NCBI RefSeq assembly: GCF_001866005.1
Contig: NZ_MLQR01000004.1
Location: 1 to 64,000, forward strand
Source: Anaerobacillus alkalilacustris
Lineage (GTDB): Bacteria; Bacillota; Bacilli; Bacillales; Anaerobacillaceae
DNA: 64,000 bases
Reading direction: 5' to 3'
Shown here: positions 8,475-60,468 of the stretch, one piece after another
Layout: each line of letters opens with the position of its first letter
Position numbering within the stretch: position 1 is the first letter of the stretch
Translations under genes and position numbers: made by a program
Notes under the pieces: model-generated
What the model was told of the DNA's origin: nothing
The model's database searches: none
What the model saw: the letters and a program-made list of their open reading frames with translations, nothing else

Positions 8475-9212
8475 ATGAGTACATTGTTGGAACTAAATCA
8501 TGTATGTGGTGGCTATCATAAGGGCAAATCAGTTTTGCACGACCTCTCTTTTTCTGTTAATAAAGGTGAAATAGTTGGATTAATTGGGTTGAATGGTGCA
8601 GGTAAAAGTACAACGATAAAGCATATCTTAGGGTTAATGGAACTTCACAGTGGTGAAATAAAAATAAATGGAAGAAGCTTTCTAGATTCTCCAAATGAGT
8701 ATCGTCTTTCTTATTCTTATATACCTGAAACACCTATTTTATATGACGATCTAACATTACAAGAGCATTTAAATGTTACAGCTATGGCTTATGGATTATC
8801 ACAGGAAGAGTTAAAGGAAAGAAGTAGCCACCTTTTAAAAGAGTTCCGTATGGAAAAAATGTTAAATTGGTTTCCGGGCCACTTTTCAAAAGGAATGCGT
8901 CAAAAAGTAATGATTATGTGCGCTTTTTTATTATACCCGCCACTTTATATAATAGATGAACCTTTTATAGGATTAGATCCTATTGCTATAAAATCTTTAT
9001 TAAATCATCTTGTTCTAATGAAGGAGCAAGATGCTGGAATTTTGATGTCTACTCATATTCTTTCAACTGCTGAAAGGTATTGTGATCGCTTTATTATGTT
9101 ACATCACGGGAAAATCATAGTTGAGGGAACATTAGAGCAATTAAGGGAGAAAACAAGTATGCCAGGTGCAGCGTTAGACGATATTTATATTGAAATAACA
9201 AAGGAAGGCTAA
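8475..9212 (+). CDS. ecsA: ABC transporter ATPase EcsA
   Basis: EcsA is the ATPase of the Ecs transporter, which influences secretion, competence and intramembrane proteolysis by RasP in B. subtilis. The 245-residue protein has Walker A GLNGAGKST (38-46), a variant signature FSKGMRQK (137-144) replacing LSGGQ, Walker B LYIIDEP (157-163) and the switch His in MSTHIL. The start has AAGGAG. It is the first gene of the ecsABC operon, with ecsB one base after its stop codon. Confidence 0.95.
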   Translation: MSTLLELNHVCGGYHKGKSVLHDLSFSVNKGEIVGLIGLNGAGKSTTIKHILGLMELHSGEIKINGRSFLDSPNEYRLSYSYIPETPILYDDLTLQEHLNVTAMAYGLSQEELKERSSHLLKEFRMEKMLNWFPGHFSKGMRQKVMIMCAFLLYPPLYIIDEPFIGLDPIAIKSLLNHLVLMKEQDAGILMSTHILSTAERYCDRFIMLHHGKIIVEGTLEQLREKTSMPGAALDDIYIEITKEG

Positions 9213-9213
9213 T

Positions 9214-10428
9214 ATGAATACTATTGAAGAATTATGGAGTCAGCGTGCAAAAGATTATTGGAGTAGGGCAATAAGATATTTACGCCTAATTGGTAACAGT
9301 GGATTTTTGTTTACAATATATTTATCAATCATCGCTGGAAGTTATTATTATAGTGAATTGTTAAAGTGGCTTCCTGAGTGGTTTCCGGCTGCCCTATTTT
9401 TAGCTGCTATAACTGCGGTATTTGTAACCAAAAGTCCGCTACGAACATTTCTAAAATCAGCTGATGTTGTTTTTCTATCACCAATAGAAGGCAAATTACA
9501 AGCATATTTTCGTTTTTCTTTCTTTTACTCATTTATCGTACAAAGTTTTGTGATTACTTTCGTGATAGTGTTATTAACGCCGATGTACCGTCATTTTATT
9601 GTAGATGATGCAAGCTCACTGATATTTGTCATTGTAGTATTGCTTATTAGCAAAGGGTGGAATCTTATTGTTCAATGGGAAGAAGCTAGACTATTATTTT
9701 TAGGTATACGGCAGGCACATACACTTATGAGGTTTGTTGTTAATTTGACATTAACATATTTTCTTTTTTCAGGAGCATCAATTTATTTTATCGTTGCTTT
9801 AGTTATTATGAAAGGATTATTACTATTACTTTATTATCAACATTTAAAGCAGCAGCATAGTTTGAAATGGGAGGTTTTAATAGAAGTAGAAGAGAGAATG
9901 GTTATGTTTTTTTATCGTATCGCCAATATGTTTACCGATGTACCGAAGTTGAGTACAAAAGTAAAGCAAAGAAAATTTTGGAGCTCTATTCCAAATTTAT
10001 TAACGTTTAATCAAACATCAACCTTTCCATATTTATTTTTAAAATCTTTTATTAGGGCTAATGATTATTTTGGTATTTATATTCGACTAACCATCGTTGC
10101 AATCGTTTTTTTATTTTATGTTCAGATTGATTACGGACGAATATTTGTAGCTCTGCTTTTTCTTTATATGTCAGCATTACAGTTATCAACACTTATGAAA
10201 CATCATAATCTTAACTTGTGGATTGATTTATATCCGATAGATGTAGAAGTAAGGAAGAAAGCTTTTTCTTCAGTCGTCTTTTCTTTGCTTTTAATTAAAG
10301 TTAGTATTTTTACTTTGTTTACATTTTTAGCAACGAATCTAACAGAGGCCCTCTTTGTTTTGGTATTAGGGTTTGTATTTAGTTATCTATATTCGTATTT
10401 TTACATGAATAAGACAAGTCAAAGTTAG
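9214..10428 (+). CDS. ecsB: ABC transporter permease EcsB
   Basis: EcsB is the membrane subunit paired with EcsA. The 404-residue protein has roughly eight to ten hydrophobic segments arranged in two clusters (about 25-190 and 290-400) with a charged central loop containing NLLTFNQTSTFPYLFLKSFIRANDYFG. The start codon follows the ecsA stop codon by one base and uses AAAGGAAGG inside the ecsA end, so translation is probably coupled. Length matches B. subtilis EcsB (about 408). Confidence 0.93.
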   Translation: MNTIEELWSQRAKDYWSRAIRYLRLIGNSGFLFTIYLSIIAGSYYYSELLKWLPEWFPAALFLAAITAVFVTKSPLRTFLKSADVVFLSPIEGKLQAYFRFSFFYSFIVQSFVITFVIVLLTPMYRHFIVDDASSLIFVIVVLLISKGWNLIVQWEEARLLFLGIRQAHTLMRFVVNLTLTYFLFSGASIYFIVALVIMKGLLLLLYYQHLKQQHSLKWEVLIEVEERMVMFFYRIANMFTDVPKLSTKVKQRKFWSSIPNLLTFNQTSTFPYLFLKSFIRANDYFGIYIRLTIVAIVFLFYVQIDYGRIFVALLFLYMSALQLSTLMKHHNLNLWIDLYPIDVEVRKKAFSSVVFSLLLIKVSIFTLFTFLATNLTEALFVLVLGFVFSYLYSYFYMNKTSQS

Positions 10429-10460
10429 GATAAGTTTTATTGTTGGAGGTGAGTGGGGAG

Positions 10461-11195
10461 TTGGATGAGTTATATGAGGATAGAGCACGAATAGAGCTAA
10501 AGCGTTGGCAAAGGAAAGTGGAGAAAAAAAGCTCCCTAGCTAGCATTTATACTAGAAAGTTACAAACAAAAGTAAATAACCAAATACCTGAAAAAATTCA
10601 TTCGATCTTTACAATAAGTGTAAAAAATATGGTGCAAGCGACTTTAGTAGGTTCTGAGTACACTACGACAACTATTCCATTAGAAGGTGTTCCTTTACAA
10701 GAACGAGAGATAAAGTTAGAAGAGAAAGTGAAAGTATATAAGAAGACAGCGGCATTCGAAGGTGCTGGAACAGGTGCGGGCGGAATAATTCTAGGAATGG
10801 TCGATTTTCCTTTACTTTTATCGATAAAAATGAGATTTTTATTTGAAGCTGCAAGTATTTATGGTTTTGATGTAAAAGATTATCGAGAAAGATTATTTAT
10901 TCTTTATCTTTTTCAGCTTGCATATTCAAGTGACAATAAAAAAAGAGATGTCTTTGAAAAGATTAAGAGATGGGAACAAATAAAAGATGATTTACCCGAT
11001 AAAGAAACATACTTAGAGGAGATAAATTGGAAATCTTTCCAGCTTGAATATCGAGATCATATCGACTTGATAAAGCTATTACAACTAATACCAGGATTTG
11101 GTGCGATTGTAGGTGCTATTGCAAACTATCATTTTCTCGAAGTCTTAGGGGAAACAGCTAAGAATAGTTATCGGATGAGATTATTAGAGTCATAA
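10461..11195 (+). CDS. ecsC: EcsC family protein
   Basis: This is the third gene of the ecs operon and a member of the EcsC family (function unknown). The sequence IPEKIHSIFTISVKNMVQATLVGSEYTT and the glycine-rich AFEGAGTGAGGIILGMVDFPLLLSIKM are family hallmarks. No ATG lies near the N-terminus. A TTG at 10461 lies 10 bases after GGAGGT (10445-10450) and is my choice (244 residues); the in-frame TTG at 10440 or GTG at 10449 are alternatives. A composite repeat follows 11 bases after the stop codon. Confidence 0.85.
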   Translation: MDELYEDRARIELKRWQRKVEKKSSLASIYTRKLQTKVNNQIPEKIHSIFTISVKNMVQATLVGSEYTTTTIPLEGVPLQEREIKLEEKVKVYKKTAAFEGAGTGAGGIILGMVDFPLLLSIKMRFLFEAASIYGFDVKDYRERLFILYLFQLAYSSDNKKRDVFEKIKRWEQIKDDLPDKETYLEEINWKSFQLEYRDHIDLIKLLQLIPGFGAIVGAIANYHFLEVLGETAKNSYRMRLLES

Positions 11196-11206
11196 ACAAA
11201 GTAACC

Positions 11207-11628
11207 AAGAAAAGCGCAAGCGCCTTGGTCACGAGCAGCTGCTCCTGTGCCACTCCGTTCGCTTGTCGCAAAGCTGCTTCGTAGTAATCCGAGTAGTAGC
11301 TTCACTGGGGCGGCCTTTGACAGAAGCCGCTCTTTGGCTTCCTACGTGCTTTTAGCGTCTGTCTAGTATTGCCTCGTAGTAAGCTTCCTCGAAGCAGTGT
11401 TTTGTGCGACGAGTAACCGCAGGAGCAATTGTTTTCCGTGCGACGAGTAACCGCAGGAGCAATTGTTTTCCGTGCGACGAGTAACCGCAGGAGCAAAGCT
11501 GCATGAAGCTATTCAGAGACGTTATTCATGTAGTTATTGAAGTCAGTAGCTTGACTGAAGTGACCGAGCTCGTAGGCTGCTTGCGCTAGACAGTTTTTCA
11601 AGTTAGAAATTTATAAATTCTGATACTG
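11207..11628. repeat. Composite intergenic repeat, copy 1 (with 34-bp tandem array)
   Basis: The outer boundary begins AAGAAAAGCGCAAGCGCC and the other ends with the tail TTATAAATTCTGATACTGT; the same ends bracket the 85-bp minimal copy at 48012. Here the interior is expanded to about 420 bp and contains a 34-bp tandem array (11404-11496). It is visibly richer in GC than the genes around it. Open frames inside (for example 11302-11496, minus) are low-complexity and have no ribosome binding site. Confidence 0.8.
11404..11496. repeat. 34-bp direct tandem repeat, 2.7 copies
   Basis: The unit starts GTGCGACGAGTAACCGCAGG and is repeated exactly at 11404-11437 and 11438-11471; a third copy runs for 25 bases (11472-11496) before diverging. 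Confidence 0.9.
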
Positions 11629-11682
11629 TAAAAAAGAGCCAGCTAAAGTTAACGTTCCTTTAGTTGGCTCTTTTTACAGTTT
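11625..11682. terminator. Strong bidirectional terminator between ecs and ccdA
   Basis: Arms at 11625-11648 and 11658-11680 pair over about 23 bases and contain AGAGCCAGCTAAAG and CTTTAGTTGGCTCT. T-runs are present on both strands, so it can serve both converging operons. Confidence 0.8.
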
Positions 11683-11802
11683 AATGAATTTCATAATCCA
11701 TCATTATCGCCACTAAGATGCTATATCTAGTTACGTTGAAGCGTTCGTAACTAGATATAGATTTATGTAGGTCGGTTCTTGTAACTATGAAATTTACTCA
11801 GT
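11680..11802 (-). repeat. MITE-like palindromic element, copy C
   Basis: Outer ends TTTAATGAATTTCATAATCC and, on the other side, AACTATGAAATTTACTCAG form imperfect terminal inverted repeats. The centre is a stem-loop, CTATATCTAGTTACG with CGTAACTAGATATAG (11721-11760). Stem sequence is shared with copies D and E. No coding capacity. Confidence 0.75.
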
Positions 11803-11898
11803 TAAGAAAAATTTTTCGGTTATTTACTTTCGGTTTAATTAAGAAAGTGGTATGCGAGAAATTATAGTTTTTTCCAACGATAAATAATAAACTGTGTA

Positions 11899-12630
11899 TT
11901 AAAAGTTAAATGGAATATATTGAGCTAACCATCCAGAAATACGAGCAAATAACCCAGTATATAAAAGAATACCAAGAATAATCATAACAATACCACTAGT
12001 CTTTTGAATAATTGGTAAATACTTATTTATTCTTCTAATCTTATTTAGTGATCGTGAGTAAAGGAGAGCCACGAGCAGAAACGGAATACCAAGTCCGATA
12101 GAGTACACGAATAATAATAACATCCCTGATGCCATTGTTCCGCTTTGAGCAGCTAAAATAAGAATAGAAGATAGGACCAGTCCGATGCAAGGGGACCAGC
12201 CAGCACCAAATACAAACCCAAACCCAACGGAACCTAAAAAACTCATCGACTTCTTCGGTTTTGTTTGAAGTTTTTTTTCACTCATTAACATTTTTATAGA
12301 AAATAAACCAAGCATTTGTAAGCCTAAGACAACGATAACTATGCCACCAATTTTCTCGAGTAATTCCCGGTTTCTCATGAACAGTTGTCCGAAAGCGGTA
12401 CTTGAGGCACCTAATAGTAGAAAGATAATTGTGAATCCAATAATAAAGCCTAGACTTCTAGAAATAATTAACTTTCGGTCTGCATGAAGTTGATTATCAG
12501 AAATGGACGTTCCGGTTAGCTGAGCCAAATATGCAGGAACTAACGGGAAAATACAAGGTGATAAAAAAGAGACTATTCCAGCTAATAATGCTAGCCAAAT
12601 CGAAATAAAAGTAAATTCTGTAATGACCAA
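11899..12630 (-). CDS. ccdA: CcdA-type thiol-disulfide membrane transporter
   Basis: CcdA/DsbD-beta proteins carry electrons from cytoplasmic thioredoxin across the membrane for cytochrome c maturation and spore cortex synthesis. The 243-residue protein has six membrane segments and the two redox Cys-Pro/Pro-Cys motifs: SPCIFPLVPAY (Cys26) and WSPCIGLVL (Cys148). Length fits CcdA (about 235). The start is a TTG at 12630 with GAGGTG 6 bases upstream. It stands alone, convergent with the ecs operon. Which thiol partner it serves is not shown, so the symbol is by family. Confidence 0.85.
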   Translation of the reverse strand: MVITEFTFISIWLALLAGIVSFLSPCIFPLVPAYLAQLTGTSISDNQLHADRKLIISRSLGFIIGFTIIFLLLGASSTAFGQLFMRNRELLEKIGGIVIVVLGLQMLGLFSIKMLMSEKKLQTKPKKSMSFLGSVGFGFVFGAGWSPCIGLVLSSILILAAQSGTMASGMLLLFVYSIGLGIPFLLVALLYSRSLNKIRRINKYLPIIQKTSGIVMIILGILLYTGLFARISGWLAQYIPFNF

Positions 12631-12848
12631 TCAAAACACCTCTTATATTAATTATGGAGTACTAAAAACACCTTAAGGTACGAGTTTATCAAGTATATTT
12701 TATCATAGAATATAAAAGCAACTTGTAACTTTATGATACCTTTGTTCGTATAGAAAAGAAAGTCGTAAAATTGCACTATATGTCGAATGTGCGTTAATAT
12801 AAAATAATATATCTATGAAATCTATATGAGATAGAAAGGAGGTCTTTT

Positions 12849-15035
12849 ATGCGTAAAAGCCTTGTAATTGGTATTGCACTATTTTCGTTTATGTTTATTT
12901 TAAGTTTCTCTATCTATATTACTATTATCCTGTTAGGAAACTATGCTATCGATAATAAAAAACTTGTTATGGATGCTGCAACGACCTTAGTCAATGAAGA
13001 TGGGGAAATAATAACAAAACTTTTTGTTGAAAATCGTGAAATTGTACCAATTTCAACTGTGCCAAATCATGTACAAGAGGCCTTTGTAGCTGTTGAAGAT
13101 GCTAGATTTTACGATCATCGTGGTATTGATTTTCGTGCAATTGGTAGAGCTTTGTATCGAGACATTATTGCTCGAGCGAAAGTTGAAGGTGGAAGCACAA
13201 TTACACAGCAATTAGTAAAGAATACGTTTTTATCGAATGAAAAAACATTGATGAGAAAAACAAAAGAAGTAGTAATAGCAATTAATTTAGAGCGACGTTA
13301 TAGTAAACAGGAAATTCTAGAGATGTATTTAAATAGAATTTACTTCGGACACGGGGCTTATGGGATACAAGCTGCTGCAAACCTTTATTTTAATAAAGAT
13401 GTAAGTGAGCTTACGGTCGATGAAGGAGCGTTGTTAGCAAGTTTGCCTAAAGCCCCAAATACGTATTCTCCTTTTAATAATTTGGAATTAAGTAAACAAA
13501 GGAGAAACCTTACATTAAGTGTTATGGAACGAAGAGGTTATATATCCGCCGAAGATGCCGTTACTTTACAAAGACGTTCTATAAATGTAGATTTCAATAA
13601 AATTTCTGAAAATCCTGCTTATTTAACATACGTTGATATGGTATTAGAAGAGGCAGAATCGCTTTACCAATTATCAAATGCTGAGATCTTACGTGGGGGT
13701 TATACGATCGTTGTACCGATGGATACTCATCTTCAAAACAAGACTTATGATCTGTTTTTAGATGAAACATATTTCCCAAAGGATGGTCCTAATCAAAAGG
13801 TTGAAGCTGCCTTTGTACTTTTAGACAATGAAACAGGAGGAGTCACTGTAGCCCTAGGTGGTAGGGATTATGTAAGAAAAGGGATAAATCGAGTAAATGT
13901 TAAAAGACAGCCTGGTTCAACGATTAAGCCTCTAATTGTTTACAGTCCGGCTTTAGAGTCAGGGCTTTATGAGCCGTATTCGCTTCTGAAAGATGAATTA
14001 ATAGATTATGCTGGGTATCAACCACGAAATTATAGTAACTACTATGATGGTGAGATTACAATGTACGATGCTTTGGTTAGTTCAGCTAATGCGCCGGCTG
14101 TTTGGCTGTTAAATGAATTAACGATTGAAGAGGGAAAGGGTTATTTAAAGGAATTTGGTATCTCTATTGAAGAAAAAGGTTTGGCACTTGCTTTAGGAGG
14201 AATGTCTGAAGGGTTAACTCCACTTGAATTAGCGACTGCTTATCGTCCTTTTGCAAGTGAAGGTAACATGATAGAGCCTTATTTTATTTTAGAACTATAT
14301 GATCGTAATGGTGAAAAAATAGTAGACGTTAATAAGGTTGAACGCCAAGTGTTGTCTTCTCAAACGGCTTGGTATATGACTAGAATGTTGGAAGCAGTTG
14401 TAACAGATGGTACTGCACGTCTCGGTCATATCGATGTAGCTTTGGCTGGAAAAACAGGGACAACATCCTTCACAGGAGTAGAGGGAGCTGTTAGAGATGC
14501 GTGGTTTGTTGGTTTTACTCCGGAATTAGTAGGTTCATTATGGATGGGTTTTGATCGAACGGATCTTGACCACCATCTTACTGTAGGAAGTTCATATCCA
14601 ACAAAATTATTTAAAGAAATTGTTAATAAAGCAGAGGTTGAAAAGAACTCATTGACTTTTACAAAACCTGATCATGTAATTGAGTTAGAGTCGCCGGTTC
14701 GTCTCGTAGAGATTGATGATTTATACGCTTCTCTTTCTTTTAAAGGTCTAGGTTTAACTGTACATTTACAATGGTCAACGTCTAATGATGAAAGACTTCA
14801 TTACCATATTTATGAAGTTAATCGTACCGGGAAATTAATAAAGATCGGGCAAGTTGAAGGCAGTGGTGAGTATTTTGTTCGTGGAGTTAATTTATTTTCA
14901 TTAAATGATTATGTTGTAAAGGCGTATAATCCTCAAACAAATATGGAAGGTGTACCTTCGAATCAAGCGAAAGTAAGTTTTTCATTAGTAGGTTCCGAAG
15001 ACAACAATATTAAAGGGATAAATAATACTCCGTAG
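12849..15035 (+). CDS. pbpF: Class A penicillin-binding protein, PbpF-like
   Basis: This bifunctional enzyme polymerises glycan strands and cross-links peptides outside the membrane. The 728-residue protein has an N-terminal anchor (about 5-30), a glycosyltransferase domain with EDARFYDHRG (catalytic Glu83), EGGSTITQQ and YLNRIYFGHGAYG, and a transpeptidase domain with STIK (Ser357), SAN (412-414) and KTG (535-537). A C-terminal Fn3-like segment follows from about residue 635. B. subtilis pbpF lies just upstream of hemE, and size agrees (about 714), so I call PbpF; PbpG-type is the alternative. AAAGGAGGT precedes the ATG. PbpF in B. subtilis contributes to the spore cell wall. Confidence 0.9.
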   Translation: MRKSLVIGIALFSFMFILSFSIYITIILLGNYAIDNKKLVMDAATTLVNEDGEIITKLFVENREIVPISTVPNHVQEAFVAVEDARFYDHRGIDFRAIGRALYRDIIARAKVEGGSTITQQLVKNTFLSNEKTLMRKTKEVVIAINLERRYSKQEILEMYLNRIYFGHGAYGIQAAANLYFNKDVSELTVDEGALLASLPKAPNTYSPFNNLELSKQRRNLTLSVMERRGYISAEDAVTLQRRSINVDFNKISENPAYLTYVDMVLEEAESLYQLSNAEILRGGYTIVVPMDTHLQNKTYDLFLDETYFPKDGPNQKVEAAFVLLDNETGGVTVALGGRDYVRKGINRVNVKRQPGSTIKPLIVYSPALESGLYEPYSLLKDELIDYAGYQPRNYSNYYDGEITMYDALVSSANAPAVWLLNELTIEEGKGYLKEFGISIEEKGLALALGGMSEGLTPLELATAYRPFASEGNMIEPYFILELYDRNGEKIVDVNKVERQVLSSQTAWYMTRMLEAVVTDGTARLGHIDVALAGKTGTTSFTGVEGAVRDAWFVGFTPELVGSLWMGFDRTDLDHHLTVGSSYPTKLFKEIVNKAEVEKNSLTFTKPDHVIELESPVRLVEIDDLYASLSFKGLGLTVHLQWSTSNDERLHYHIYEVNRTGKLIKIGQVEGSGEYFVRGVNLFSLNDYVVKAYNPQTNMEGVPSNQAKVSFSLVGSEDNNIKGINNTP

Positions 15036-15060
15036 GTTTCGTTACCTGCGGAGTTTTGTT
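15027..15060 (+). terminator. pbpF terminator overlapping its stop codon
   Basis: Arms ACTCCGTAGGT (15027-15037) and ACCTGCGGAGT (15044-15054) pair with one G-U and are followed by TTTTGTT. The left arm includes the pbpF stop codon. Confidence 0.75.
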
Positions 15061-15137
15061 ATGTAGATTTCATATACATATTTTAGGAAGTAAGGTGAAA
15101 AATACTATTATGATAAAAGTAGTTCGAGGAGATTGAG

Positions 15138-15335
15138 ATGAACGATTTAATAGATCGAATTTTTGGCTTTTTACCTAATCGGGGGATTTTTTGGACAGCT
15201 GTTGCGCTATGTATTGTCATGTTTATTACACGGTCAGTAACAAACTGGTTAGTTGAAAAGGTTAAATTACCATGGATGGAAGAAAAGAATCAAAAGCAAA
15301 GAAAAGCTTTTCAAAATGGAAATGATACTAAGTAG
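15138..15335 (+). CDS. Small membrane protein of the germination operon (candidate D subunit)
   Basis: The 65-residue product starts at ATG 15138 after CGAGGAG. It has one clear membrane helix (about 17-35, IFWTAVALCIVMFI) and a charged C-terminal tail. It is 7 bases upstream of the GerB-type gene and is therefore co-transcribed with the receptor genes. Some ger operons in Bacillus carry a small 'D' gene of about 70-80 residues whose product modulates germination; those usually have two helices. Assignment to that class is inference from context; I see no sequence signature. Confidence 0.6.
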   Translation: MNDLIDRIFGFLPNRGIFWTAVALCIVMFITRSVTNWLVEKVKLPWMEEKNQKQRKAFQNGNDTK

Positions 15336-15342
15336 GTGAACT

Positions 15343-16464
15343 ATGGATCCAAATAGCTATCAAATTTCAAAAATAGAAATGTCAGTAACACTCATTTGTA
15401 TGATTATCGGAGTTGGTATCTTAACTTTACCACGTGTTTTAGCTTCGTCAATGGAAACACCAGATGGGTGGATTTCAGTAGGAATCGGCTCCTTGATGAC
15501 GATGGTTATCATTTTCTTCATAGTGAAACTTCATCGTCATTTCCCTGGTGAAACACTTTTTATGTTTGTAAGTAAGAGTTCGAAAGGAAAGTGGATAGGG
15601 AAGTTGCTAACAATCGCATTCTTTGTACACTTTTTGTCTTTGTTGTCTTATGAAGCTAGAATACTAACCATTGTTATTCGAATGTATTTACTAGCCGAAA
15701 CTCCTTCAGAAATTACTGCCGTTATTATTTTTTTAGCGACTACTTATGCAGTGACCAAAGGGCTTCAAGGTATCGTTCACTTAAATTTAATGTTCTTACC
15801 TATTGTATTAATCATGATCTTTATTATTCTTATGTTTAGTATGGGAGAGGGACAAGTCGATCACTTACTTCCTATAGCAGCAGAAGGCATTTCTCCCATC
15901 ATAACAGGAGTTTCCGATACTGTTTTTTCATTTTTAGGATTTGAAATATTATTTTTTTTCATAGCGTTTATGAAGCTAAAAGATATTATGGCTGCTCCTT
16001 TGAATGGGGGAATTACGGTAATAACGATTTTTTATGTCGCGGTTGTTGCCATTTCTTATAGTGTACTTTCAGTAGAGGGAACGAAAGTTATTGCTTTTCC
16101 ATTAGTTGCTTTAGCAAAAGAGTTAGAAGTTGTCCAAGGTATTATTGAACGTATGGAACCCCTTCTCATAACGGTTTGGATTATGACCATTTTCAATACA
16201 ATGACCATTTCTCATTTTCTTGCTACAAGATTAGTAAAGGAGGTATTAATAACGAAACCACGAAGCTCCACCATTGCGATAATTATCACTTTTTTTTCAT
16301 TTATCATTGCGTTTATCCCTAACTCCATTCAAGAGACATTTATATTTGGGGATTTACTTTCTTATTTTGCAATGTTTATTACGATTATTTCACTAATTAT
16401 TGGATATACGTTTGTTGTCGTTAAAAAGAAGAAACAAAAACAAGAGGGAAGCGAGGCGATGTGA
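15343..16464 (+). CDS. Spore germination permease, GerB family
   Basis: GerB-type proteins are the integral-membrane, probably ligand-recognising subunits of nutrient germination receptors in the spore inner membrane and belong to the amino acid-polyamine-organocation transporter superfamily. The 373-residue product has about ten membrane helices and the family start YQISKIEMSVTLICMIIGVGILTLPR. Length is typical (about 365). TAGGTG at the end of the preceding gene is its ribosome binding site. It is followed directly by the GerC gene. The nutrient recognised cannot be read from the sequence. Confidence 0.92.
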   Translation: MDPNSYQISKIEMSVTLICMIIGVGILTLPRVLASSMETPDGWISVGIGSLMTMVIIFFIVKLHRHFPGETLFMFVSKSSKGKWIGKLLTIAFFVHFLSLLSYEARILTIVIRMYLLAETPSEITAVIIFLATTYAVTKGLQGIVHLNLMFLPIVLIMIFIILMFSMGEGQVDHLLPIAAEGISPIITGVSDTVFSFLGFEILFFFIAFMKLKDIMAAPLNGGITVITIFYVAVVAISYSVLSVEGTKVIAFPLVALAKELEVVQGIIERMEPLLITVWIMTIFNTMTISHFLATRLVKEVLITKPRSSTIAIIITFFSFIIAFIPNSIQETFIFGDLLSYFAMFITIISLIIGYTFVVVKKKKQKQEGSEAM

Positions 16465-17658
16465 GTGCTCCGTAAGTTATTTTTTCTCTTCGCTGTTTTA
16501 TCACTGTTAACTTCTTGTTGGGATTCAACAGAAATAGAGGAGGTCGGGTTTGTAGCAGCAGTTGCTTTAGATCCTATAGAAAAAAAAGATTTAGAACTTT
16601 ATAAGGAACAGTTTCAAAAAGAAACAGGTATAACACCTGGTCACCTTTATAAAACAACGTACCAAGTATTTATTCCAAGTGCAGCTAATGGAGAAGGAGT
16701 AGCCACAGATGACGCTTTTTTTAATATTACTTCTGTTGGAAGAACGAATTTTAAAATTAATCGAAACATAGCAGCACGGAGAAGTCGTCGCCTTAATTAC
16801 GAGCATTTAAAAGTGATTATCATAAATGAAGAACTTACGAAATCAGGATCGATGATCGGCCACCTTATTGATTTTTACATTAGAGATCACGAGATGCGCA
16901 GAAACGCGTTGGTTTTTATTTCTAACGGAGCGGCAAACGGAAGCTTACAACACAAACTTCCTCTTGAACTTATGCCAACTACTTCTATTAAGATGGTTCA
17001 AGAGAATTATAAAGCTAATCATGCGATGCCACCTCCAAAAGAAATAGGTGATTTAGCAAAAGATATTATTAATGATCAAAGTTATATTCTCCCAAGAATA
17101 ACTCCCTTTGAGGGGATAGATTTTAAAGTTGCAGGAGCTGGTGTTTTTTTAGGACGAACAAATGAATTTGTTGGTTGGTTAGGGGAAATCGATTTATTGG
17201 CGTATAGCTTAGTAACGGGTGATGCATTTAATGCGATTTTAGAAGTTGATAAAGACGGGAAATTGTTTGTTTTTGAAATTGACACGATGGGGTCGGTCAT
17301 CAATTATCAACGTAAAAATGATCAAGATTATTTTCAAATAGACATTAAGGCTGAAGGATTTTTAGGTGAAAGTTGGCTAGGAGACATAGAACTCAGTGAA
17401 GATATGAATGAAAAGTTGGAAGTGGCGGTAGAAAAGGAAATTGAACATTTAGCCAAAAACATCATTGACAAACTGCAACACGAATTTCATGCAGATATTT
17501 TTGGTCTATATAAAAAGGTAAAGCAAAAAAATTATCGTTATTGGAAAGGGATTGAAGAGAATTGGGGTGGAGAAGGTGGATTGTTTTCAAAGGCAACCAT
17601 TGATGTTTCGGCCAAGGTGAAAATCAGACATTACATGACTGAAGAAAAAGTTTCGTAA
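16465..17658 (+). CDS. Ger(x)C spore germination lipoprotein
   Basis: The C subunit of a germination receptor is a lipoprotein on the outer face of the spore inner membrane. This 397-residue protein starts at GTG 16465, immediately after the GerB-gene stop codon, with GAGG 8 bases upstream. The signal peptide LRKLFFLFAVLSLLTSC has lipobox LTSC followed by WDSTEIEE, the hallmark of Ger(x)C proteins. C-terminal EIEHLAKNIIDKLQ and HADIFGLYKKVKQKNYRYW match the family's last domain. Confidence 0.92.
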   Translation: MLRKLFFLFAVLSLLTSCWDSTEIEEVGFVAAVALDPIEKKDLELYKEQFQKETGITPGHLYKTTYQVFIPSAANGEGVATDDAFFNITSVGRTNFKINRNIAARRSRRLNYEHLKVIIINEELTKSGSMIGHLIDFYIRDHEMRRNALVFISNGAANGSLQHKLPLELMPTTSIKMVQENYKANHAMPPPKEIGDLAKDIINDQSYILPRITPFEGIDFKVAGAGVFLGRTNEFVGWLGEIDLLAYSLVTGDAFNAILEVDKDGKLFVFEIDTMGSVINYQRKNDQDYFQIDIKAEGFLGESWLGDIELSEDMNEKLEVAVEKEIEHLAKNIIDKLQHEFHADIFGLYKKVKQKNYRYWKGIEENWGGEGGLFSKATIDVSAKVKIRHYMTEEKVS

Positions 17659-17668
17659 GGTGAGTGCG

Positions 17669-19195
17669 ATGCTAAAAAAATTATTTTCAAAGCTACATTC
17701 GACGGAAGTAAGGAAGGAAGCAGAATTCCAAATTGAATTTACTGGAAACATTGATAAAACAGTTGAGTCAATCAATAATATCGTCGGTGAAAGCGATGAT
17801 ATTATTCAAAGGGATTTTTTAATTGGTAAAAAAATTAGAGCAACACTCTTTTTTGTTGATGGATTATGTGATTCTGATAGTATAGAGGAAGATATTATTC
17901 GCCCGTTAATATACTTTACCGAGCCAGATCGATTTGATGAAAAAGATTTTTTATTCTATTTGCAAAATGAAGTCATCACTCTTTCTGAACTTAAATTTGA
18001 AAAATCGTTGGAAAAGGCGATGCTTCCGTTCCTTTCTGGTGAAACCATATTGGTTATTGATGGATTAAAGGAGTTAATTCTTTTTGAAACTCGCAAATTT
18101 AATGAAAGAGGTATTGCGGAGCCAGAAAGTGAAGTCGTTGTTCGTGGACCTAGAGATGGATTTGTTGAATCGTTACATACGAACATTCTACAAGTACGTA
18201 GACGAATTCGAGATCCGAACTTAACTGTTCAATTTGGTACATTAGGCAGAAGAGCTAAAAGCGATATTGCGGTCGTTTATATTAAAGGTGTCGCGAACGA
18301 AAAATTTATTGATGAAATCCGGTATAGAGTTTCATGTATAAATAATGATCATGTTACTGAAACAGGGACATTAGAACAACTTATTGAAGACAATGTATTA
18401 TCTGTTTTTCCGCAAATGTCTAGAACGGAACGCCCTGATAAAATAGTTGCAGCTTTAATGAATGGAAATGTTGTGATATTTCACGATGGCAGTCCATTTG
18501 CGTTAATGGCTCCAGTAATGTTTCATATGTTATTTCGCTCACCAGAAGATTACTATGATCGTTGGCAAATTGGTTCATTAATTCGGGTGCTGCGATATTT
18601 TGCCGCCCTAATCGCTATATTTCTTCCGGCTATATATATCGCAATGGTTTCCTTTCACCAAGGAATGCTTCCGACTACGTTAGCCGTTTCAATTGCTGCC
18701 TCTAGGGAAGGTGTACCATTTCCAGCATTAATTGAAGCGATATTTATGGAAGTAACAATTGAACTTCTACGTGAAGCGGGAGTTAGATTACCAAGAGCGG
18801 TAGGACAAACAATCGGAATTGTTGGTGGGCTTGTCATTGGAGATGCTGCAGTTCGGGCTGGGATTGTTAGTCCGGTTATGGTCATCGTTGTTGCACTTAC
18901 TGCCATAGCATCGTTTTCCATTCCTGCCTACAACATCAGCATTGCTTTTCGGGTAATCCGTTTTTTGATGATGCTAAGCGCAGCAGTGTTTGGTTTATAT
19001 GGTCTTGTCATGGTTTATATCTTCATAAATATTCACCTTGTTGGTTTAAGGAGTTTAGGTGCTTATTATACGGCACCATTTGCTCCCTACCACTTTGGAG
19101 ATTGGTTAGATTTACTTATTAGAGCACCTTTAAGTGTTTTAACTAAACGCTCTACAGAATTGAAGTCGCCAGATCAACAAAAGAAAGGTTTATAG
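17669..19195 (+). CDS. Spore germination protein, GerA family
   Basis: The A subunit of the germination receptor has a large cytosolic N-terminal domain and a C-terminal membrane domain. This protein (508 residues) contains the A-family hallmarks VRGPRDGFVESLHTNILQVR and RRRIRDPNL, then MAPVMFHMLFRSPEDYYDRW at the domain junction, and about five membrane segments (about 300-485). I choose ATG 17669, 6 bases after AAGGTG; a GTG at 17660 is also in frame. The gene order B-C-A differs from the canonical A-B-C. A composite repeat begins right at its stop codon. Confidence 0.93.
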   Translation: MLKKLFSKLHSTEVRKEAEFQIEFTGNIDKTVESINNIVGESDDIIQRDFLIGKKIRATLFFVDGLCDSDSIEEDIIRPLIYFTEPDRFDEKDFLFYLQNEVITLSELKFEKSLEKAMLPFLSGETILVIDGLKELILFETRKFNERGIAEPESEVVVRGPRDGFVESLHTNILQVRRRIRDPNLTVQFGTLGRRAKSDIAVVYIKGVANEKFIDEIRYRVSCINNDHVTETGTLEQLIEDNVLSVFPQMSRTERPDKIVAALMNGNVVIFHDGSPFALMAPVMFHMLFRSPEDYYDRWQIGSLIRVLRYFAALIAIFLPAIYIAMVSFHQGMLPTTLAVSIAASREGVPFPALIEAIFMEVTIELLREAGVRLPRAVGQTIGIVGGLVIGDAAVRAGIVSPVMVIVVALTAIASFSIPAYNISIAFRVIRFLMMLSAAVFGLYGLVMVYIFINIHLVGLRSLGAYYTAPFAPYHFGDWLDLLIRAPLSVLTKRSTELKSPDQQKKGL

Positions 19196-19681
19196 CGCTT
19201 GCTCTTGAGCAAACGGAGTGGCACAGGAGCAGCTGCTCGTGACCAAGGCGCTTGTGCTTTTCTAACAGTATCAGAATTTATAAATTTCTAACTTGGAAAC
19301 TGTCTAGCTTCAGCGCCTACGAGCTCGGTCACTTCAGTCAAGCTATTGACTTCAATAACTACATGAATAACGTCTCTGAATAGCTTCATGCAGCTTTGCT
19401 TCGAGGAAGCTTACTACGAAGCAATACTAGAAGACGCAGAAGCACGTAGGAAGCCAAAGAGCGGCTTCTGTCAAAGGCCTTCCAGTGCCGTTCGCTCGTG
19501 ACCAAGGCGCTTGTGCTTTTCTAACAGTATCAGAATTTATAAATTTCTAACTTGGAAACTGTCTAGCTTCAGCGCCTACGAGCTCGGTCACTTCAGTCCT
19601 TTTCGGAAGCCAAAGAGCGGCTTCTGTCAAAGGCCTTCCAGTGCCTTTCGCTCGTGACCAAGGCGCTTGTGCTTTTCTAAT
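19194..19681. repeat. Composite intergenic repeat, copy 2 (nested duplications)
   Basis: This 488-bp block carries the same motifs as the other copies in inverted order: GACCAAGGCGCTTGTGCTTTT, TATCAGAATTTATAAATTTC and ACTGTCTAGCTTCAGCGCC. It contains an exact 105-bp direct duplication (19235-19339 and 19494-19598) and a second overlapping duplication of about 75 bp (near 19451-19525 and 19607-19680). No gene is seen. Confidence 0.8.
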
Positions 19682-20019
19682 GAAATTTTATCAGTTTTAT
19701 GAACTTTATATTTTTAAAAAACGAAATGTTAAAAATATCACATATAAACCGATTGGCTATCGTTAAGATAGTAATTAGGTAAATCAAAGAACCTTGTTAG
19801 GAGGGCGAAAGCTACAAAAGTGTAAAGTTAAATAAAGTAATACTATTGAAAAAGTCGGAAAAAAAGATCGGTTTTATGACAAGTTGTTCGAAAATATATA
19901 CAGACTTCCTTAAGAAAGTATATAGTAAAAAGGTATATAAGAACTTTACAAAAGAAAATTTACTAAGTGTTGTGATTTACATAATAAAAGTAATACCTTA
20001 AAAGAAGGGTGAGGACGAA
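19682..20019. other. hemE upstream region
   Basis: No gene is seen in these 338 bases. The region must hold the hem operon promoter. AT-rich direct repeats such as AGTATATAG and GGTATATAAG occur at 19917-19940. I could not recognise a riboswitch or a certain operator. Confidence 0.4.
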
Positions 20020-21054
20020 ATGACAATAAATTTTAATGGGAATTTTTTAAAAGCATGTAAAGGGGAGAGTGTTTCGCATGTTCCTGTGTGGTATATGAGA
20101 CAAGCAGGGAGATCTCAGCCTGAGTACCGTGCGATTAAAGAAAAATATTCATTATTTGAAATTACACATCAACCTGAGCTCTGTGCCTATGTGACAAAGC
20201 TTCCTGTAGATCAATATAATAATGATGCTGCAATTCTTTATAAGGACATTATGACACCACTTCCTGCTATTGGGGTAGATGTAGAAATTAAACCTGGAAT
20301 TGGTCCTGTTATTGCCAACCCTGTTCGAACAATGGCTGATGTGGAGAAATTGGGAACTATTAACCCACAAGCAGATGTTGCTTATGTATTAGACACAATT
20401 AAATTGTTAAGAGAACAATTAACCGTTCCGTTAATTTCATTTGGCGGAGCGCCATTTACACTTGCAAGCTATATGATTGAAGGTGGACCTTCAAAAAACT
20501 ATAATAATACAAAGGCGTTTATGTATTCACAGCCTGAAAGCTGGTTTTTATTAATGGATAAACTAGCAGATATGACAATTACTTATTGTAAGGCACAAAT
20601 TCATGCTGGTTCACAAGCCATTCAAATTTTTGATTCATGGGTAGGAGCGTTAAATGTACAAGATTATCGAACATTTATTAAACCTACTATGCAAAAAATC
20701 TTTACAGCATTAAAAGAAGAGAATGTTCCACTTATTATGTTCGGTGTCGGTGCTAGTCACCTGGCAAATGAATGGCACGACCTTCCGTTAGATGTAGTTG
20801 GGCTAGATTGGAGATTATCAATTAAAGAAGCCGGTGAGCGTGGAATCAAAAAAACTGTTCAAGGTAATTTAGATCCGGCAATTTTACTTGCACCTTGGGA
20901 TGTAATTGAAACGAAAGCAAAAGAAATTCTAGATCAAGGAATGGCTCACGAAGGTGGCTTTATATTCAATCTTGGCCACGGTGTTTTTCCACAAGTGAAT
21001 CCTGATACATTACGTAAATTAACTGCTTTTGTTCATGAATATACAACTAAATAA
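20020..21054 (+). CDS. hemE: Uroporphyrinogen decarboxylase HemE
   Basis: HemE decarboxylates the four acetate side chains of uroporphyrinogen III to give coproporphyrinogen III in haem synthesis. The 344-residue cytoplasmic protein has the signature [15 protein letters not shown] near the N-terminus and FDSWVGAL, with the C-terminal [11 protein letters not shown]. Length is typical. GAAGGGTGAGG precedes the ATG. First gene of hemE-hemH-hemY, as in B. subtilis. Confidence 0.97.
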
Positions 21055-21100
21055 TCATTTTGTATCTATGGGTGTAGAATGAAAAGAAAGGTGCAATAAA

Positions 21101-22048
21101 ATGTCTAAGAAAAGGATAGGTTTACTAGTAATGGCTTATGGAACTCCTCGTAAGATTGAGGAAATTGAGCCTTATTATACACATATTAGACGTGGAAGAA
21201 AACCTTCGGAGGAGATGCTAGATGAGCTTATTGAACGCTATGAAGCAATAGGAGGTATTTCTCCGTTAGCCAAAATAACGGCTTCACAGGCTAAAGGGTT
21301 AGAAAAAAGGTTAAATGAATTAAATCAAGATGTTGAGTTTAAGCTTTATTTAGGATTAAAGCACATTGATCCATTTATTGAAGATGCTGTTGATCAGATG
21401 AAAAATGATGGAATTGAAGAGGCGGTAAGTATAGTATTAGCACCACATTACTCAACATTTAGTGTTAAGTCATATAATGGTCGAGCAAAAGAGCGATCAG
21501 AAGAGGTAGGCGGACCAAGAATTTATAGTATCGATAGTTGGTATAGCCACCCAAAGTTTATTCAATATTGGGCAGCTCAAATAAAAGAGATCTTTGTTAA
21601 TATGAATAATGAAGAAAAAGAAAAGGCTGTTGTTATTTTTTCGGCTCATAGTCTTCCGGAAAAAATCTTACAGCATGGTGATCCGTACGTGAAGCAACTA
21701 CAAGAAACAGGTGATTTAATTGCTCAAGCAGCTAGTATTAAACATTATACAATTGGATGGCAAAGTGAAGGGAATACACCTGATCTTTGGTTAGGACCAG
21801 ATGTTCAAGACTTAACGAGAGATTTATATCATCAAAATGGCTATACTTCAATAATTTATTGTCCAGTTGGCTTTGTTGCTGACCACTTAGAAGTTTTGTA
21901 TGACAATGATATTGAATGTAAAGTAGTAACAAATGAGCTAGGAATTCAATACTATCGTCCACCAATGCCAAATGATAGCATTAATTTTATTGATTGTTTA
22001 GCGGATGTTGTTATGAATAAGTTTTCAAAGAAAGAAAGTGAGCGCTAA
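21101..22048 (+). CDS. hemH: Ferrochelatase HemH/CpfC
   Basis: In Firmicutes this enzyme inserts iron into coproporphyrin III (the coproporphyrin-dependent haem pathway). The 315-residue sequence has the metal ligands at the same numbers as B. subtilis HemH: His183 in FSAHSLPEK and Glu264 in DHLEVLYD. The N-terminus is [11 protein letters not shown]. The stop codon overlaps the hemY start in TAATG, so the two are translationally coupled. Confidence 0.97.
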
Positions 22049-23454
22049 TGAGTAAAAAGAGAGTAGCAATTATCGGCGGTGGAATAACTGGATTAACAGC
22101 TGCGTACTACTTACAAAAAGAAATTTTAGCAAATAATTTAGATTGTGAATACCGCCTTTATGAGAAATCTACAAAGTTAGGTGGGAAAATCGCTACAGAT
22201 TATCGAAATGGCTTTGTTATTGAGATGGGCCCAGATTCCTTTCTTGCAAGAAAACAAAGTGCTTCTAGATTTGCAAAAGAAGTAGGATTAGAACAAGAAC
22301 TTGTTCATAATGGGACAGGAGGCTCATTTATACTAGTGAATGGTAAGCTTTATCCTATGCCAGGCGGGGCAATTATGGGTATTCCAACACAAATGGCCCC
22401 TTTTGCGACAACAAAATTATTTTCACCACTAGGAAAATTACGGGCAGCTGGAGATTTAATTTTACCAAAAGCGAGTGACCCTGATGTGGATATGTCATTA
22501 GGAAGCTTTTTTCGAAAGCGCCTAGGCAATGAAGTTGTCGATAATCTTATTGAACCACTACTTTCGGGAATTTACGCAGGTGATATCGACAAATTAAGCT
22601 TAATGGCTACATTTCCGCAATTTCACCAAGTGGAACAAAAACATCGTAGTCTTATTTTGGGAATGAAGAAAGCGACACCGCCAAAGCCTAAAAATGTTTC
22701 AAGAGAAAAGCCGAAAGGAATGTTTTTGTCCTTTAAACGGGGTTTACAATCATTTGTAGATGGAATTGAAAAGCATCTAGACGAAGATTCGATCGTTAAA
22801 GGTGTTGGGATTGTAAAAGTTGTAAAGAAAGGTGAGCAGTATGAGCTAACCTTCTCTAGTGGAGCAGTTGAATTATTTGACTATGTTGTAATGGCAACTC
22901 CGCATTATGTAACAGAACAGGCTTTTAAAGACTATTCTTTCTTGCAACCATTAGCTAGTATTCCATCTACATCTGTTGCAACAGTCGCTATGGCTTTTCC
23001 TAAAAATGCAATCAAACAAGATATTAATGGAACAGGCTTTGTAGTTGCAAAGAAAAGTGAGTATAATATAACTGCTTGTACATGGACACATAAAAAATGG
23101 CACCATTCTACCCCTGAAGGCTATGCGTTACTACGCTGTTATGTAGGAAGAGCTGGCAACGATTCAATTGTTGATTGGTCTGATGATAAAATAATAGATG
23201 CTGTATTAACGGATTTGAATAAAACAATGAAAATCGATGTGAAACCAGAATTTCATATTATTCACCGTTGGAAACATTCCATGACTCAATATGTTGTTGG
23301 ACATAAACAACTAATTGAAGAGGTAAAAGATCAATTGCAAAAGCAATTGCCAGGGGTCTATGTAGCCGGCGGTTCCTACGAAGGTATTGGTGTACCGGAT
23401 TGTATTGACCAAGGTGAAGCTGTTGTTCAGAAATTAAAGAAAAACCTCATATGA
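22048..23454 (+). CDS. hemY: Coproporphyrinogen III oxidase HemY/CgoX
   Basis: This oxygen-dependent flavoenzyme oxidises coproporphyrinogen III to coproporphyrin III in Gram-positive bacteria (older name protoporphyrinogen oxidase). The 468-residue protein has the FAD motif IIGGGITGLTAAYYL near the N-terminus, LGGKIATDYRNGFVIEMGPDSF, and the C-terminal GGSYEGIGVPDCIDQGE. Length fits (about 470). It overlaps hemH by one base. Its stop codon lies inside the left arm of a long terminator. Confidence 0.96.
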   Translation: MSKKRVAIIGGGITGLTAAYYLQKEILANNLDCEYRLYEKSTKLGGKIATDYRNGFVIEMGPDSFLARKQSASRFAKEVGLEQELVHNGTGGSFILVNGKLYPMPGGAIMGIPTQMAPFATTKLFSPLGKLRAAGDLILPKASDPDVDMSLGSFFRKRLGNEVVDNLIEPLLSGIYAGDIDKLSLMATFPQFHQVEQKHRSLILGMKKATPPKPKNVSREKPKGMFLSFKRGLQSFVDGIEKHLDEDSIVKGVGIVKVVKKGEQYELTFSSGAVELFDYVVMATPHYVTEQAFKDYSFLQPLASIPSTSVATVAMAFPKNAIKQDINGTGFVVAKKSEYNITACTWTHKKWHHSTPEGYALLRCYVGRAGNDSIVDWSDDKIIDAVLTDLNKTMKIDVKPEFHIIHRWKHSMTQYVVGHKQLIEEVKDQLQKQLPGVYVAGGSYEGIGVPDCIDQGEAVVQKLKKNLI

Positions 23455-23507
23455 AAAATGCCCTTTTAGTAATTAGTCTTTACTAAAAGGGTATTTTTCA
23501 TATGAGG
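23445..23507 (+). terminator. Long hairpin terminator of the hem operon
   Basis: The arms (23445-23471 and 23481-23507) pair over about 27 bases and include CCTCATATGAAAAATGCCC on the left side and GGGTATTTTTCATATGAGG on the right. The hemY stop codon lies in the left arm. Confidence 0.75.
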
Positions 23508-23760
23508 ATAAGTGTAATTTTCTAAAGCAAGAAAGGTGTTTAGTTTACGTGCATCCTCGCTCGAAGTCTATTTCCGTAGCAAGAAGCTAGGGAGGGGTTC
23601 ACATGTAATTGCGGTAAGTAACTTTTGTAGAATGAAAATGTTTAAGAAGTAAAAGAGTTATTTGTGAAATAGGTTTTACTTTATGTATAAATATTTTTCT
23701 AATTTTAAATACAGTAGTTAATAGGCGGTTTCTAAGAAGTGTTCTACTGTTTTATAGAAG
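23508..23760. other. Intergenic spacer between hemY and the ABC transporter genes
   Basis: These roughly 250 bases hold no open frame with a ribosome binding site worth reporting. A GGGAGGGG at about 23591-23598 is followed by ATG-TAA only. Confidence 0.5.
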
Positions 23761-23797
23761 AAAAACGATAGGATAAAATCATCCTATCGTTTTTTGT
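23761..23797. terminator. Terminator between converging hem operon and ABC transporter genes
   Basis: Arms AAAACGATAGGAT and ATCCTATCGTTTT enclose a six-base loop and have A/T-runs on both sides, so it works in both directions. Confidence 0.8.
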
Positions 23798-23820
23798 GAA
23801 TTTTTAAATATATATTAGAT

Positions 23821-24813
23821 TTAGTTATCTGCTAATATCTTATCAAGTCTTGATGTGTCTACGAAACCATCTAAGTTAGGCTCGTTATCAATAAAGTTTA
23901 ATTCATATGAAGCCGTAGCCCAAGCTTGAAGAGCATCTGAATGTGTTTCAGTTGTAACAACCATTCTAGTCCATGCATTCTCTAAAACTGACTCAGGAAG
24001 TCGTGTTTGCGATAGCTCATAAAGAGAATCGTTAATTGTAGCTAGTGTATCTTCAGTGTGTTCCTGTGTATATTCAACAGCGCGTTTATGGGCACGTAAA
24101 AATTGGTCAACAGCTTCTGGGTTTTCGTTTAAAAACTGAGGTGTTGTAACAACAACAACACTTGGAAGAGTTTCTCCTAAGAATACATCATTCCATTCGG
24201 TAATAACCTTTGCACCTAACTCTTCAACTAAATATGTTCCCCATGGCTCTGGAGCTGCAGCAGCATCAATTTCACCTTGCTCAAACATAATCATCATATT
24301 TGCTGGGTTTACACGTGGTTGATGATCGACAGTTCCACCGCGTCTAGTTGTTGTTAATCCAATATCTTGAAGCATAATTTCTAACTGTACATTATGTGTG
24401 CATCCGTTACCTGGTGTACAAAATGATTTTCCAGCGAAATCTTCTAACGTTTCTATTCCTGCATCTTCTCTAGCAACGATTAATGTTGCCCCATTAGCTG
24501 CAGCTCCTAAAACGACGATATCGCCTCCTGCTAAGAAATAGTTAATGGCTGGACCTGGACCAACATATCCAAGTTGAATAGACCCACTATCTAGTGCTTC
24601 GATAAAGTCATTTCCATTTGGAAAGTTTGTAAATGCCACATCTTTACCTTCTAATTCTTCTTCAAAAAAGCCTTTCTCTTTTCCGATAATCCCAGCTGCG
24701 TGATCTAGGTTTGGAAAATAACCAATACTTACAGAATTAGACTTATCTGATCCGCAAGCGGCCAAAATTGCAACAGCTAAAATAAACAGCGTTACTGATA
24801 AAAGTTTCTTCAT
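23821..24813 (-). CDS. ABC transporter substrate-binding lipoprotein (SsuA/TauA/NitT type)
   Basis: This 330-residue lipoprotein starts at ATG 24813, 6 bases after GGGGGA, with lipobox LAAC. It belongs to the periplasmic-binding family for sulfonates, taurine, nitrate or thiamine precursors: VSIGYFPNLDHAAGI, then LGYVGPGPAINYFLAGGDIVVLGAAANGATLI, and AAAPEPWGTYLVEELGAKV. A Cys-flanked SFCTPGNGCTHN loop is present. It is the last gene of a three-gene minus-strand operon. The ligand is probably an alkanesulfonate or related anion, but this is inference from the family. Confidence 0.8.
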   Translation of the reverse strand: MKKLLSVTLFILAVAILAACGSDKSNSVSIGYFPNLDHAAGIIGKEKGFFEEELEGKDVAFTNFPNGNDFIEALDSGSIQLGYVGPGPAINYFLAGGDIVVLGAAANGATLIVAREDAGIETLEDFAGKSFCTPGNGCTHNVQLEIMLQDIGLTTTRRGGTVDHQPRVNPANMMIMFEQGEIDAAAAPEPWGTYLVEELGAKVITEWNDVFLGETLPSVVVVTTPQFLNENPEAVDQFLRAHKRAVEYTQEHTEDTLATINDSLYELSQTRLPESVLENAWTRMVVTTETHSDALQAWATASYELNFIDNEPNLDGFVDTSRLDKILADN

Positions 24814-26426: not shown

Positions 26427-26833
26427 AGTCAAACCTCCAAACCTATTAACATCATAAAACATATATTTTTAGTCGGAATTAAAGTACTCTTAGTATATGA
26501 TGTATATATGAAACTGTCAACGAAATGTATTGAAAAATATATATAAAGAAAATATAGTCAAAATGGTTACAATAATAAGGTAGTGTTGTTATTTGAAAAT
26601 ATTTATATTATAGGTAAATATCGGGTTTTTATATTAGTTGAAAGTAAGTAGCAATAAATAAATTATATCTTGAAAGTATGTGACATAAGGAAAATATTAC
26701 TGGTTTGTCTAGAATTAGATTGAGAAAGGGATTTTTTATGATAAACTATAGTGTAGGATTGAAATTGTCAGGATCATATTAAACAAGTTTTTAAGTTTTT
26801 TCATGATGCTTTGTTTATCAACAAAGCTTTTCT
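26427..26833. other. Promoter region of the ABC operon and orphan terminator
   Basis: No gene is seen. The part near 26427-26530 must hold the promoter for the minus-strand ABC operon; I could not recognise an S-box. On the plus strand a TTGAGA around 26729 and a TATAGT-like sequence around 26748 precede a small hairpin GCTTTGT/ACAAAGC with T-run (26808-26833). The hairpin could terminate a very short transcript or be a leftover of the rpmA-type genes that usually precede spo0B. Confidence 0.35.
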
Positions 26834-26943
26834 TGCATAATCAGAATTATAAATTTCTAACTTGGAAACTTTCTAGCGCTAGCAGACTACGTGCTCGGTC
26901 ACTTCAGTCCTTTCGCTCGTGACCAAGGCGCTTGCGCTTTTCT
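26834..26943. repeat. Composite intergenic repeat, copy 3
   Basis: It contains ATAATCAGAATTATAAATTTC, ACTTGGAAACTTTCTAGCGC, CGGTCACTTCAGTCC and ACCAAGGCGCTTGCGCTTTT in the same order as copies 2 and 7. It separates the ABC transporter genes from spo0B and sits at the apparent synteny break. Confidence 0.75.
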
Positions 26944-37701: not shown

Positions 37702-37930
37702 TTGAAGTTGGAAAGGTGTCTAGCTTCAGTCAGCTTTGTTTCTGCGGTTACTCGTTGCACAAAACACTGCATTGAGGTAGCTTACTATGAAGCTGCTTGC
37801 TCTTGAGTCAACGGAATGGCACAGGCGCAGCTGCTCGTGACCAAGGCGCTTGCATAATCAGAATTTATAAATATCCAACTTTGAAACTGTCTAGCTCCAG
37901 GCGCCTCGATCACTTCACTTCGTCAATTGC
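37702..37930. repeat. Composite intergenic repeat, copy 5
   Basis: It includes GTGTCTAGCTTCAG, GCGGTTACTCGTTGCAC (reverse complement of the unit in the 34-bp array of copy 1), GCTCTTGAGTCAACGGA, GACCAAGGCGCTTGCATAATC and CAGAATTTATAAAT. A 66-codon frame at 37797-37997 is not a gene. Confidence 0.75.
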
Positions 37931-48096: not shown

Positions 48097-48106
48097 TGTT
48101 GAAAAA

Positions 48107-60466: not shown

Positions 60467-60468
60467 GT

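Follow-up and report, generated by a model that had tools for sequence, protein, structure and literature searches.

The germination operon at positions 15138–19195 of Anaerobacillus alkalilacustris contig NZ_MLQR01000004.1 begins with a gene, here called d, for a 65-residue protein with one predicted helix. The analysis covered the first 64,000 nucleotides of this contig, called the window below. In the genomes compared, d marks one branch of GerA receptors, in which it is encoded before gerB, after gerC or before gerA, or is joined to the N-terminus of GerA. Receptors that bear d probably have four parts, not three, and d is likely to be the fourth: a single helix beside the A subunit, with its C-terminus on the core side, that stabilises or tunes the A-B-C complex.

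The operon consists of four genes on the + strand. Open reading frames (ORFs) and Pfam matches agree with the initial annotation on the small-B-C-A order and on the 65-residue gene seven bases upstream of gerB. The genes are as follows:

15138..15335, + strand: d, candidate gene for a small single-helix subunit; ORF of 65 residues, with homologue alignments and codon selection
15343..16464, + strand: gerB, spore permease (B subunit), 373 residues; PF03845 241.5 bits, TIGR00912 192.5 bits
16465..17658, + strand: gerC, C subunit, 397 residues; PF05504, PF25198, TIGR02887 258.7 bits
17660..19195, + strand: gerA, A subunit, 511 residues; PF03323 603.8 bits

The Pfam names are Spore_permease (gerB), Spore_GerAC (gerC) and GerA (gerA), and according to Pfam and NCBIfam the three domains of a GerA-type receptor are encoded together here. 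The true start of gerA may be the ATG at 17669, where the GerA profile match begins. The seven bases between the d stop and the gerB ATG are 15336–15342, and the ribosome site of gerB (AGGTG) overlaps the d stop codon.

Association of d with one branch of GerA receptors

The cleanest evidence for the association came from a search with GerA only. A profile made from the GerA proteins of d-bearing operons (A6) was run against 194 genomes, with at most seven candidates scored per genome. Forty-two rows scored at least 710 bits; after a gap came a partial gene at 668 bits, from a locus with broken gerB and gerA and an intact d (genome G005), and then 35 rows between 661 and 618 bits. Of the 42 high-scoring rows, 41 have d, as a separate gene in 37 and fused to GerA in four (L113, L114, L143, L144). 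Nine of the 35 lower-scoring loci were examined (the top eight and L044 from the A. alkalilacustris genome), and d was found in none of them. Two of these nine, L151 and L152, have a small two-helix gene between gerC and gerB.

A midpoint-rooted tree of 61 GerA rows gave a similar picture, with all d-bearing rows on one side of a single branch (48 rows, support 99/99). The position of d follows the phylogeny, as d-B-C-A, A-B-C-d, d-A-B-C or a fusion: the d-B-C-A operons form one branch (13 rows, 100/100), as do the A-B-C-d operons (11 rows, 98/92), and the fusions need two changes. L130 is the only row inside the d branch that is not labelled as having d. In a quicker tree of 81 rows, the d branch had 62 rows, with a support of 99 in the Shimodaira–Hasegawa-like approximate likelihood-ratio test, and three of its rows (L130, L147 and L148) were labelled as having none. 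Score and tree disagree in part, since L147 and L148 are low-scoring yet inside the d branch. Some of the rows in the trees had been found through d, so the tree sample is biased and the GerA-only test is the cleaner of the two.

In L130, a conserved d frame (L130:4942–5060) stands behind a GGAGGG sequence and has no ATG, GTG or TTG; the codon at the start position is ATC. Another genome, G003, carries an additional receptor copy of this class at L067:5904–7743; the copy is degenerate and has neither d nor a recognised gerB.

Separate and fused members of the family

Relatives of d were found in three further arrangements. In A-B-C operons, one-helix proteins of 40–57 residues are encoded directly after gerC, most of them with a DPPWK-like C-terminal motif; in Priestia-type operons, one-helix proteins in this size range are encoded directly before gerA (d-A-B-C). 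The profile-profile comparison of the short one-helix relatives with d gave a probability of 96.3 and an E value of 1.5e-9 (hhalign). With the short relatives as queries, 93 of the 397 genomes had a match at E≤0.01, the weakest rows falling mainly in short pieces or in long frames of no relation. Each of the 30 loci that this search returned contains a ger gene, and 29 have an intact small ORF beside gerA or gerC; in the 30th (L096) the d match has an internal stop and no small ORF was called. Twenty additional rows of the same table were picked by hand and fetched, and 19 of these are ger-linked, with eleven separate d genes, the startless frame of L130 and seven fusions. The twentieth, L120, is a false match outside ger genes.

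The third arrangement is the fusion. In L113–L119 and in L080, on a Cytobacillus solani plasmid, the d-like helix makes up about the first 40 residues of the GerA ORF. The first start codon of all eight is GTG, and in six an AGGAGG lies ahead of it at normal spacing. Judged by hydropathy and position, L143 and L144 are built the same way, which brings the total to ten fused GerA ORFs. At a hydropathy threshold of 1.4 over 19 residues, a hydrophobic segment is present in the first 70 residues of all ten fused GerA proteins and in 1 of 71 others, with two of the ten having been labelled partly by hydropathy itself.

Another small protein was seen beside a different GerA pair. Single-helix mini-proteins of 39–41 residues that carry a PW motif close to the N-terminus are encoded at L043:8394–8513 (A. 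alkalilacustris, contig C36) and L078:9018–9143 (a Priestia megaterium plasmid). The two are alike by eye and could represent yet another, third type of small subunit in these receptors.

Sequence conservation and selection

The d protein of the window has a single hydrophobic stretch, and its AlphaFold2 model has helices at residues 2–10 and 12–64, with a mean predicted local distance difference test score of 72.7. Alignments of the family show, in order, GFLP near the N-terminus, one helix, and KLP[WY]MEExN (KLPWMEExN in the d of the window). The d of the window has the features by which the single-helix family is recognised – the LP motif, one helix, an end bearing lysine or arginine, and a place beside or fused to a GerA of the d branch. 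Among 67 distinct d proteins, hydropathy gave one helix in 60, none in six and two in one. Lysine and arginine are richer on the C-terminal side of the helix in 40 of the 67 and on the N-terminal side in five, the rest being ties.

Judged from its codons, the d family is under purifying selection, and d is a real protein-coding gene. Across 66 pairs drawn from 12 d genes, differences per site were 0.45, 0.27 and 0.59 at codon positions 1, 2 and 3. The ratio of non-synonymous to synonymous substitution rates (dN/dS) was 0.11, 0.16, 0.18 and 0.15 in four of the six pairs tried, all four between relatives; the other two pairs, including the one with the d of the window, were saturated. This selection, the homologues in six of seven genomes of the genus and the fixed place before gerB put d beyond a chance reading frame.

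The protein family libraries overlook this family. Searched by itself against Pfam, NCBIfam and PHROGs, the 65-residue d gave nothing beyond noise below threshold. When 28 family members (alignments A2 and A5) were scanned against Pfam and NCBIfam, there were three stray matches, each of a single member, and no family matched more than one. One designed protein in the PDB matched alignment A5 over only 16 positions, and was disregarded.

The operons most similar to that of the window have d directly before gerB. Homologues of d were found in six of the seven Anaerobacillus genomes, that of A. alkalilacustris included, and at the same genomic place in all six; the seventh assembly (G004) is 62% complete. 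Among 397 genomes of the order there were 15 matches to d at E≤1e-3, one of them (L037) a false match inside a transporter gene. In 13 of the 14 loci fetched, not counting the window, d immediately precedes gerB in an operon of B-C-A order, and the 14th is the false match. A scan of named genomes found d-B-C-A or d-B-B-C-A at six of six loci: two in Alkalihalobacterium, one in Alkalihalobacillus sp. BA299, two in Halalkalibacter and one in A. arseniciselenatis. Four of these were already in the 14-locus set, and both Halalkalibacter loci are additional. The d-B-B-C-A order was seen in L029:3771–6510 and L030:4160–6672, operons of family f6 (Alkalihalobacterium-type) in which two different gerB genes follow d in tandem. 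In L041:6531–10581 (genome G005), gerB and gerA are each split into two frames and d is intact, which reflects either a decaying receptor or sequencing errors. Six orphan gerB loci similar to the gerB of the window (L059–L064) had no gerA, gerC or d within the 12 kilobases fetched.

Proposed role of d and the alternatives

The current view of germinant receptors is that of channels gated by nutrients, with A-B-C units arranged around a ring formed by the A subunits (PMC11841064, PMC13170314). The N-terminal domain of the A subunit is described as lying in the spore core (PMC13170314), so the C-terminus of a helix fused just before this domain would point to the core. The natural fusions thus suggest that d lies beside A with its C-terminus towards the core, and a separate d may sit beside A in the same orientation as the fused helix. 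The charge pattern of the d proteins agrees with a C-terminus inside.

On the reading preferred here, d, once translated in the spore, would cross the spore inner membrane once, with the N-terminus on the outer face and the C-terminus, the KLPWMEExN part, towards the spore core, and its helix would pack against the A subunit, which forms the channel. By stabilising or tuning the A-B-C complex, it would alter how easily nutrient binding triggers channel opening; two-helix D subunits act on their own receptors in this way. The gene would be an old one, nearly always kept in one GerA branch, whether before B, after C, before A or joined to the N-terminus of A. Published work on other small subunits is in keeping with such a role. 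GerUD, which has two helices, lowers the apparent Km of its receptor about three- to four-fold (glucose 7.5 to 1.7, proline 5.4 to 1.7), and either of its helices alone is enough for function (PMC4661057). In an AlphaFold 3 model, the small GerID forms part of the GerI protomer (PMC13170314).

A stabilising or tuning channel subunit is the likeliest role, and the main rival is an assembly or folding chaperone in the forespore membrane that is not a lasting part of the receptor. A chaperone role has been suggested for GerUD itself, in which a single, swapped or even reversed helix is still functional (PMC4661057); tolerance of a reversed sequence favours a loose chaperone-like role over precise packing. 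For d, however, the helix is the N-terminus of GerA in eight ORFs by profile and in two more by hydropathy, and the GFLP and LP motifs are kept, as they would not have to be in a generic helix, so that a chaperone seems unlikely. The resemblance of d to GerUD and GerKD in size class and operon association, together with the sufficiency of one GerUD helix, could also mean that d is an ordinary member of the two-helix D family that has lost a helix. This origin is improbable: comparison with three two-helix proteins, GerUD itself not among them, gave hhalign probabilities of 0.7 and 1.0 of 100, nearly all d proteins have one helix as counted above, and the GerA rows of the three two-helix loci are outside the d branch. 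Lastly, the seven-base gap and the overlap of the gerB ribosome site with the d stop would suit a translated leader that couples translation to gerB and whose product is irrelevant. With protein-level selection on the d codons, and with relatives after gerC or fused to GerA, positions in which nothing could serve as a leader, such a leader is very hard to credit.

Besides the tolerance of GerUD to reversal, several observations count against d as a constant and precisely placed subunit. The 42nd high-scoring GerA row, a degenerate gene (G003:C1:2490716), is without d. L147 and L148 lie inside the d branch on a long stem and have no recognisable d before gerA or after gerC, so d can be absent. 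Among the fusions, the GTG of L080 is not preceded by a clear ribosome site, the GAGGAGG of L116 is very near the start, and weak candidates for an internal start occur in the fused GerA ORFs of L115, L116 and L118. The fusions in L143 and L144 rest on hydropathy and position, with a profile match at E 0.033 in L143 and none in L144.

The balance tips slightly towards a broader proposal, in which the whole GerA branch would be four-part by construction. Nearly all its complete receptors would have an additional helix ahead of the A subunit or next to it, supplied either by a separate mini-gene that has changed its operon position several times or by GerA itself, and serving as a functional piece of the channel subunit; the two-helix D proteins elsewhere would have met the same need independently. 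Models of this receptor branch with three chains probably miss one.

Expression, genomic location and the composite repeat

The features around the operon are as follows:

12849..15035, + strand: pbpF-like class A penicillin-binding protein (PBP1A-type), left neighbour; TIGR02074 589.9 bits
15027..15058, + strand: inverted repeat ACTCCGTAGG / CCTGCGGAGT, read by eye; candidate pbpF terminator dividing pbpF from the ger operon
15101..15107, + strand: AATACTA, candidate -10 element of a forespore (sigma-G-like) promoter, from the upstream alignment
15126..15131, + strand: GAGGAG, ribosome-binding sequence ahead of the d ATG, read off the sequence
19196–19690, no strand assigned: copy of a genome-wide composite repeat, outside the operon; from matches in the same genome, and not found in the corresponding gaps of relatives
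20020..21054, + strand: hemE, right neighbour; TIGR01464 414.7 bits

A block upstream of d, GGTGAAAAATACTA, is common to five of six Anaerobacillus upstream regions. Together with the inverted repeat after pbpF, it suggests that the ger operon has its own promoter, possibly of the sigma-G type. The AATACTA at 15101–15107 was compared with the sigma-G -10 consensus, CATACTA; inspection of the upstream sequence gave no convincing -35 to go with it.

The PBP1A-type protein and hemE on the flanks (Pfam, NCBIfam) bear out the placement of the operon between pbpF and hemE, presumably adjacent genes in B. subtilis. The pbpF-ger-hemE arrangement is present in six Anaerobacillus genomes (the window included), one genome of family f45 and two of family f26, and within the d-B-C-A group these two families branch deeply and apart from each other. 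One f6 and one f42 genome were checked as well; in both, the ger operon is elsewhere, and other genes come between hemE and the pbpF-like gene. The most parsimonious history is an old location that was abandoned a single time.

The initial annotation had read a composite repeat on both flanks as pointing to insertion. The flanking copies are real (19196–19690 and, beyond pbpF, 11208–11635), and further pieces lie in the window at 26826–26943, 37795–37926, 48014–48105 and 60467–60545. The repeat has at least 61 matches in the genome, itself included, on both strands (40 of 334 candidates scored), and when the gerA-hemE gaps of eight relatives were examined, it was found in none. With a repeat scattered genome-wide and a location common to distant families, a recent repeat-driven insertion was rejected. 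Rfam gave nothing at gathering score over 9000–24000. Nor is the B-C-A order an oddity in itself: there are ten GerA matches in the A. alkalilacustris genome, and the order of ger genes differs between loci of this same genome. The earlier interpretation as a whole is thus partly supported, its candidate D-like fourth subunit having gained from the search of other ger operons, in which homologues go with ger genes.

Comparison with known small subunits

D-type modulators are established as two-helix proteins, and those of the GerUD/GerKD type modulate their own receptor (PMC4661057). Like them, d is a small protein of the membrane whose gene lies within or next to a ger operon, but GerUD and GerKD have two helices and an outward loop, and d has one helix. 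Two-helix small genes were found between gerC and gerB (A-C-D-B) at L151:6378–6626, L152:6418–6648 and L082:7634–7867, and the GerA rows of these loci are outside the d branch. Homology of d to these proteins was not detected with hhalign in a three-protein alignment. The suggestion that d is a new kind of modulator therefore holds for its single helix and for the absence of a detected relation to these three proteins; D-type modulators as such were already published (PMC4661057).

GerID of the Bacillus cereus GerI receptor is likewise a small subunit encoded in its ger operon, and could belong to the d family. A GerIA fragment had no match at E≤1e-70 in 199 genomes, a set with no positive control, so this search is uninformative. 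GerX(x) of Clostridium botulinum Group III resembles d by description: a 74-residue single-helix protein of a ger cluster, encoded before gerXB, which is said there to lack homologues outside Group III (PMC5083711). The open-access literature searched had no account of the d family or of a GerA fusion; Ramirez-Peralta et al. 2013 (J Bacteriol 195:3009), outside that search, may list members.

The mode of action of D subunits has been described as unknown (PMC4661057). The natural fusion of a D-like helix to the channel subunit names a likely partner and an orientation, both of which are testable.

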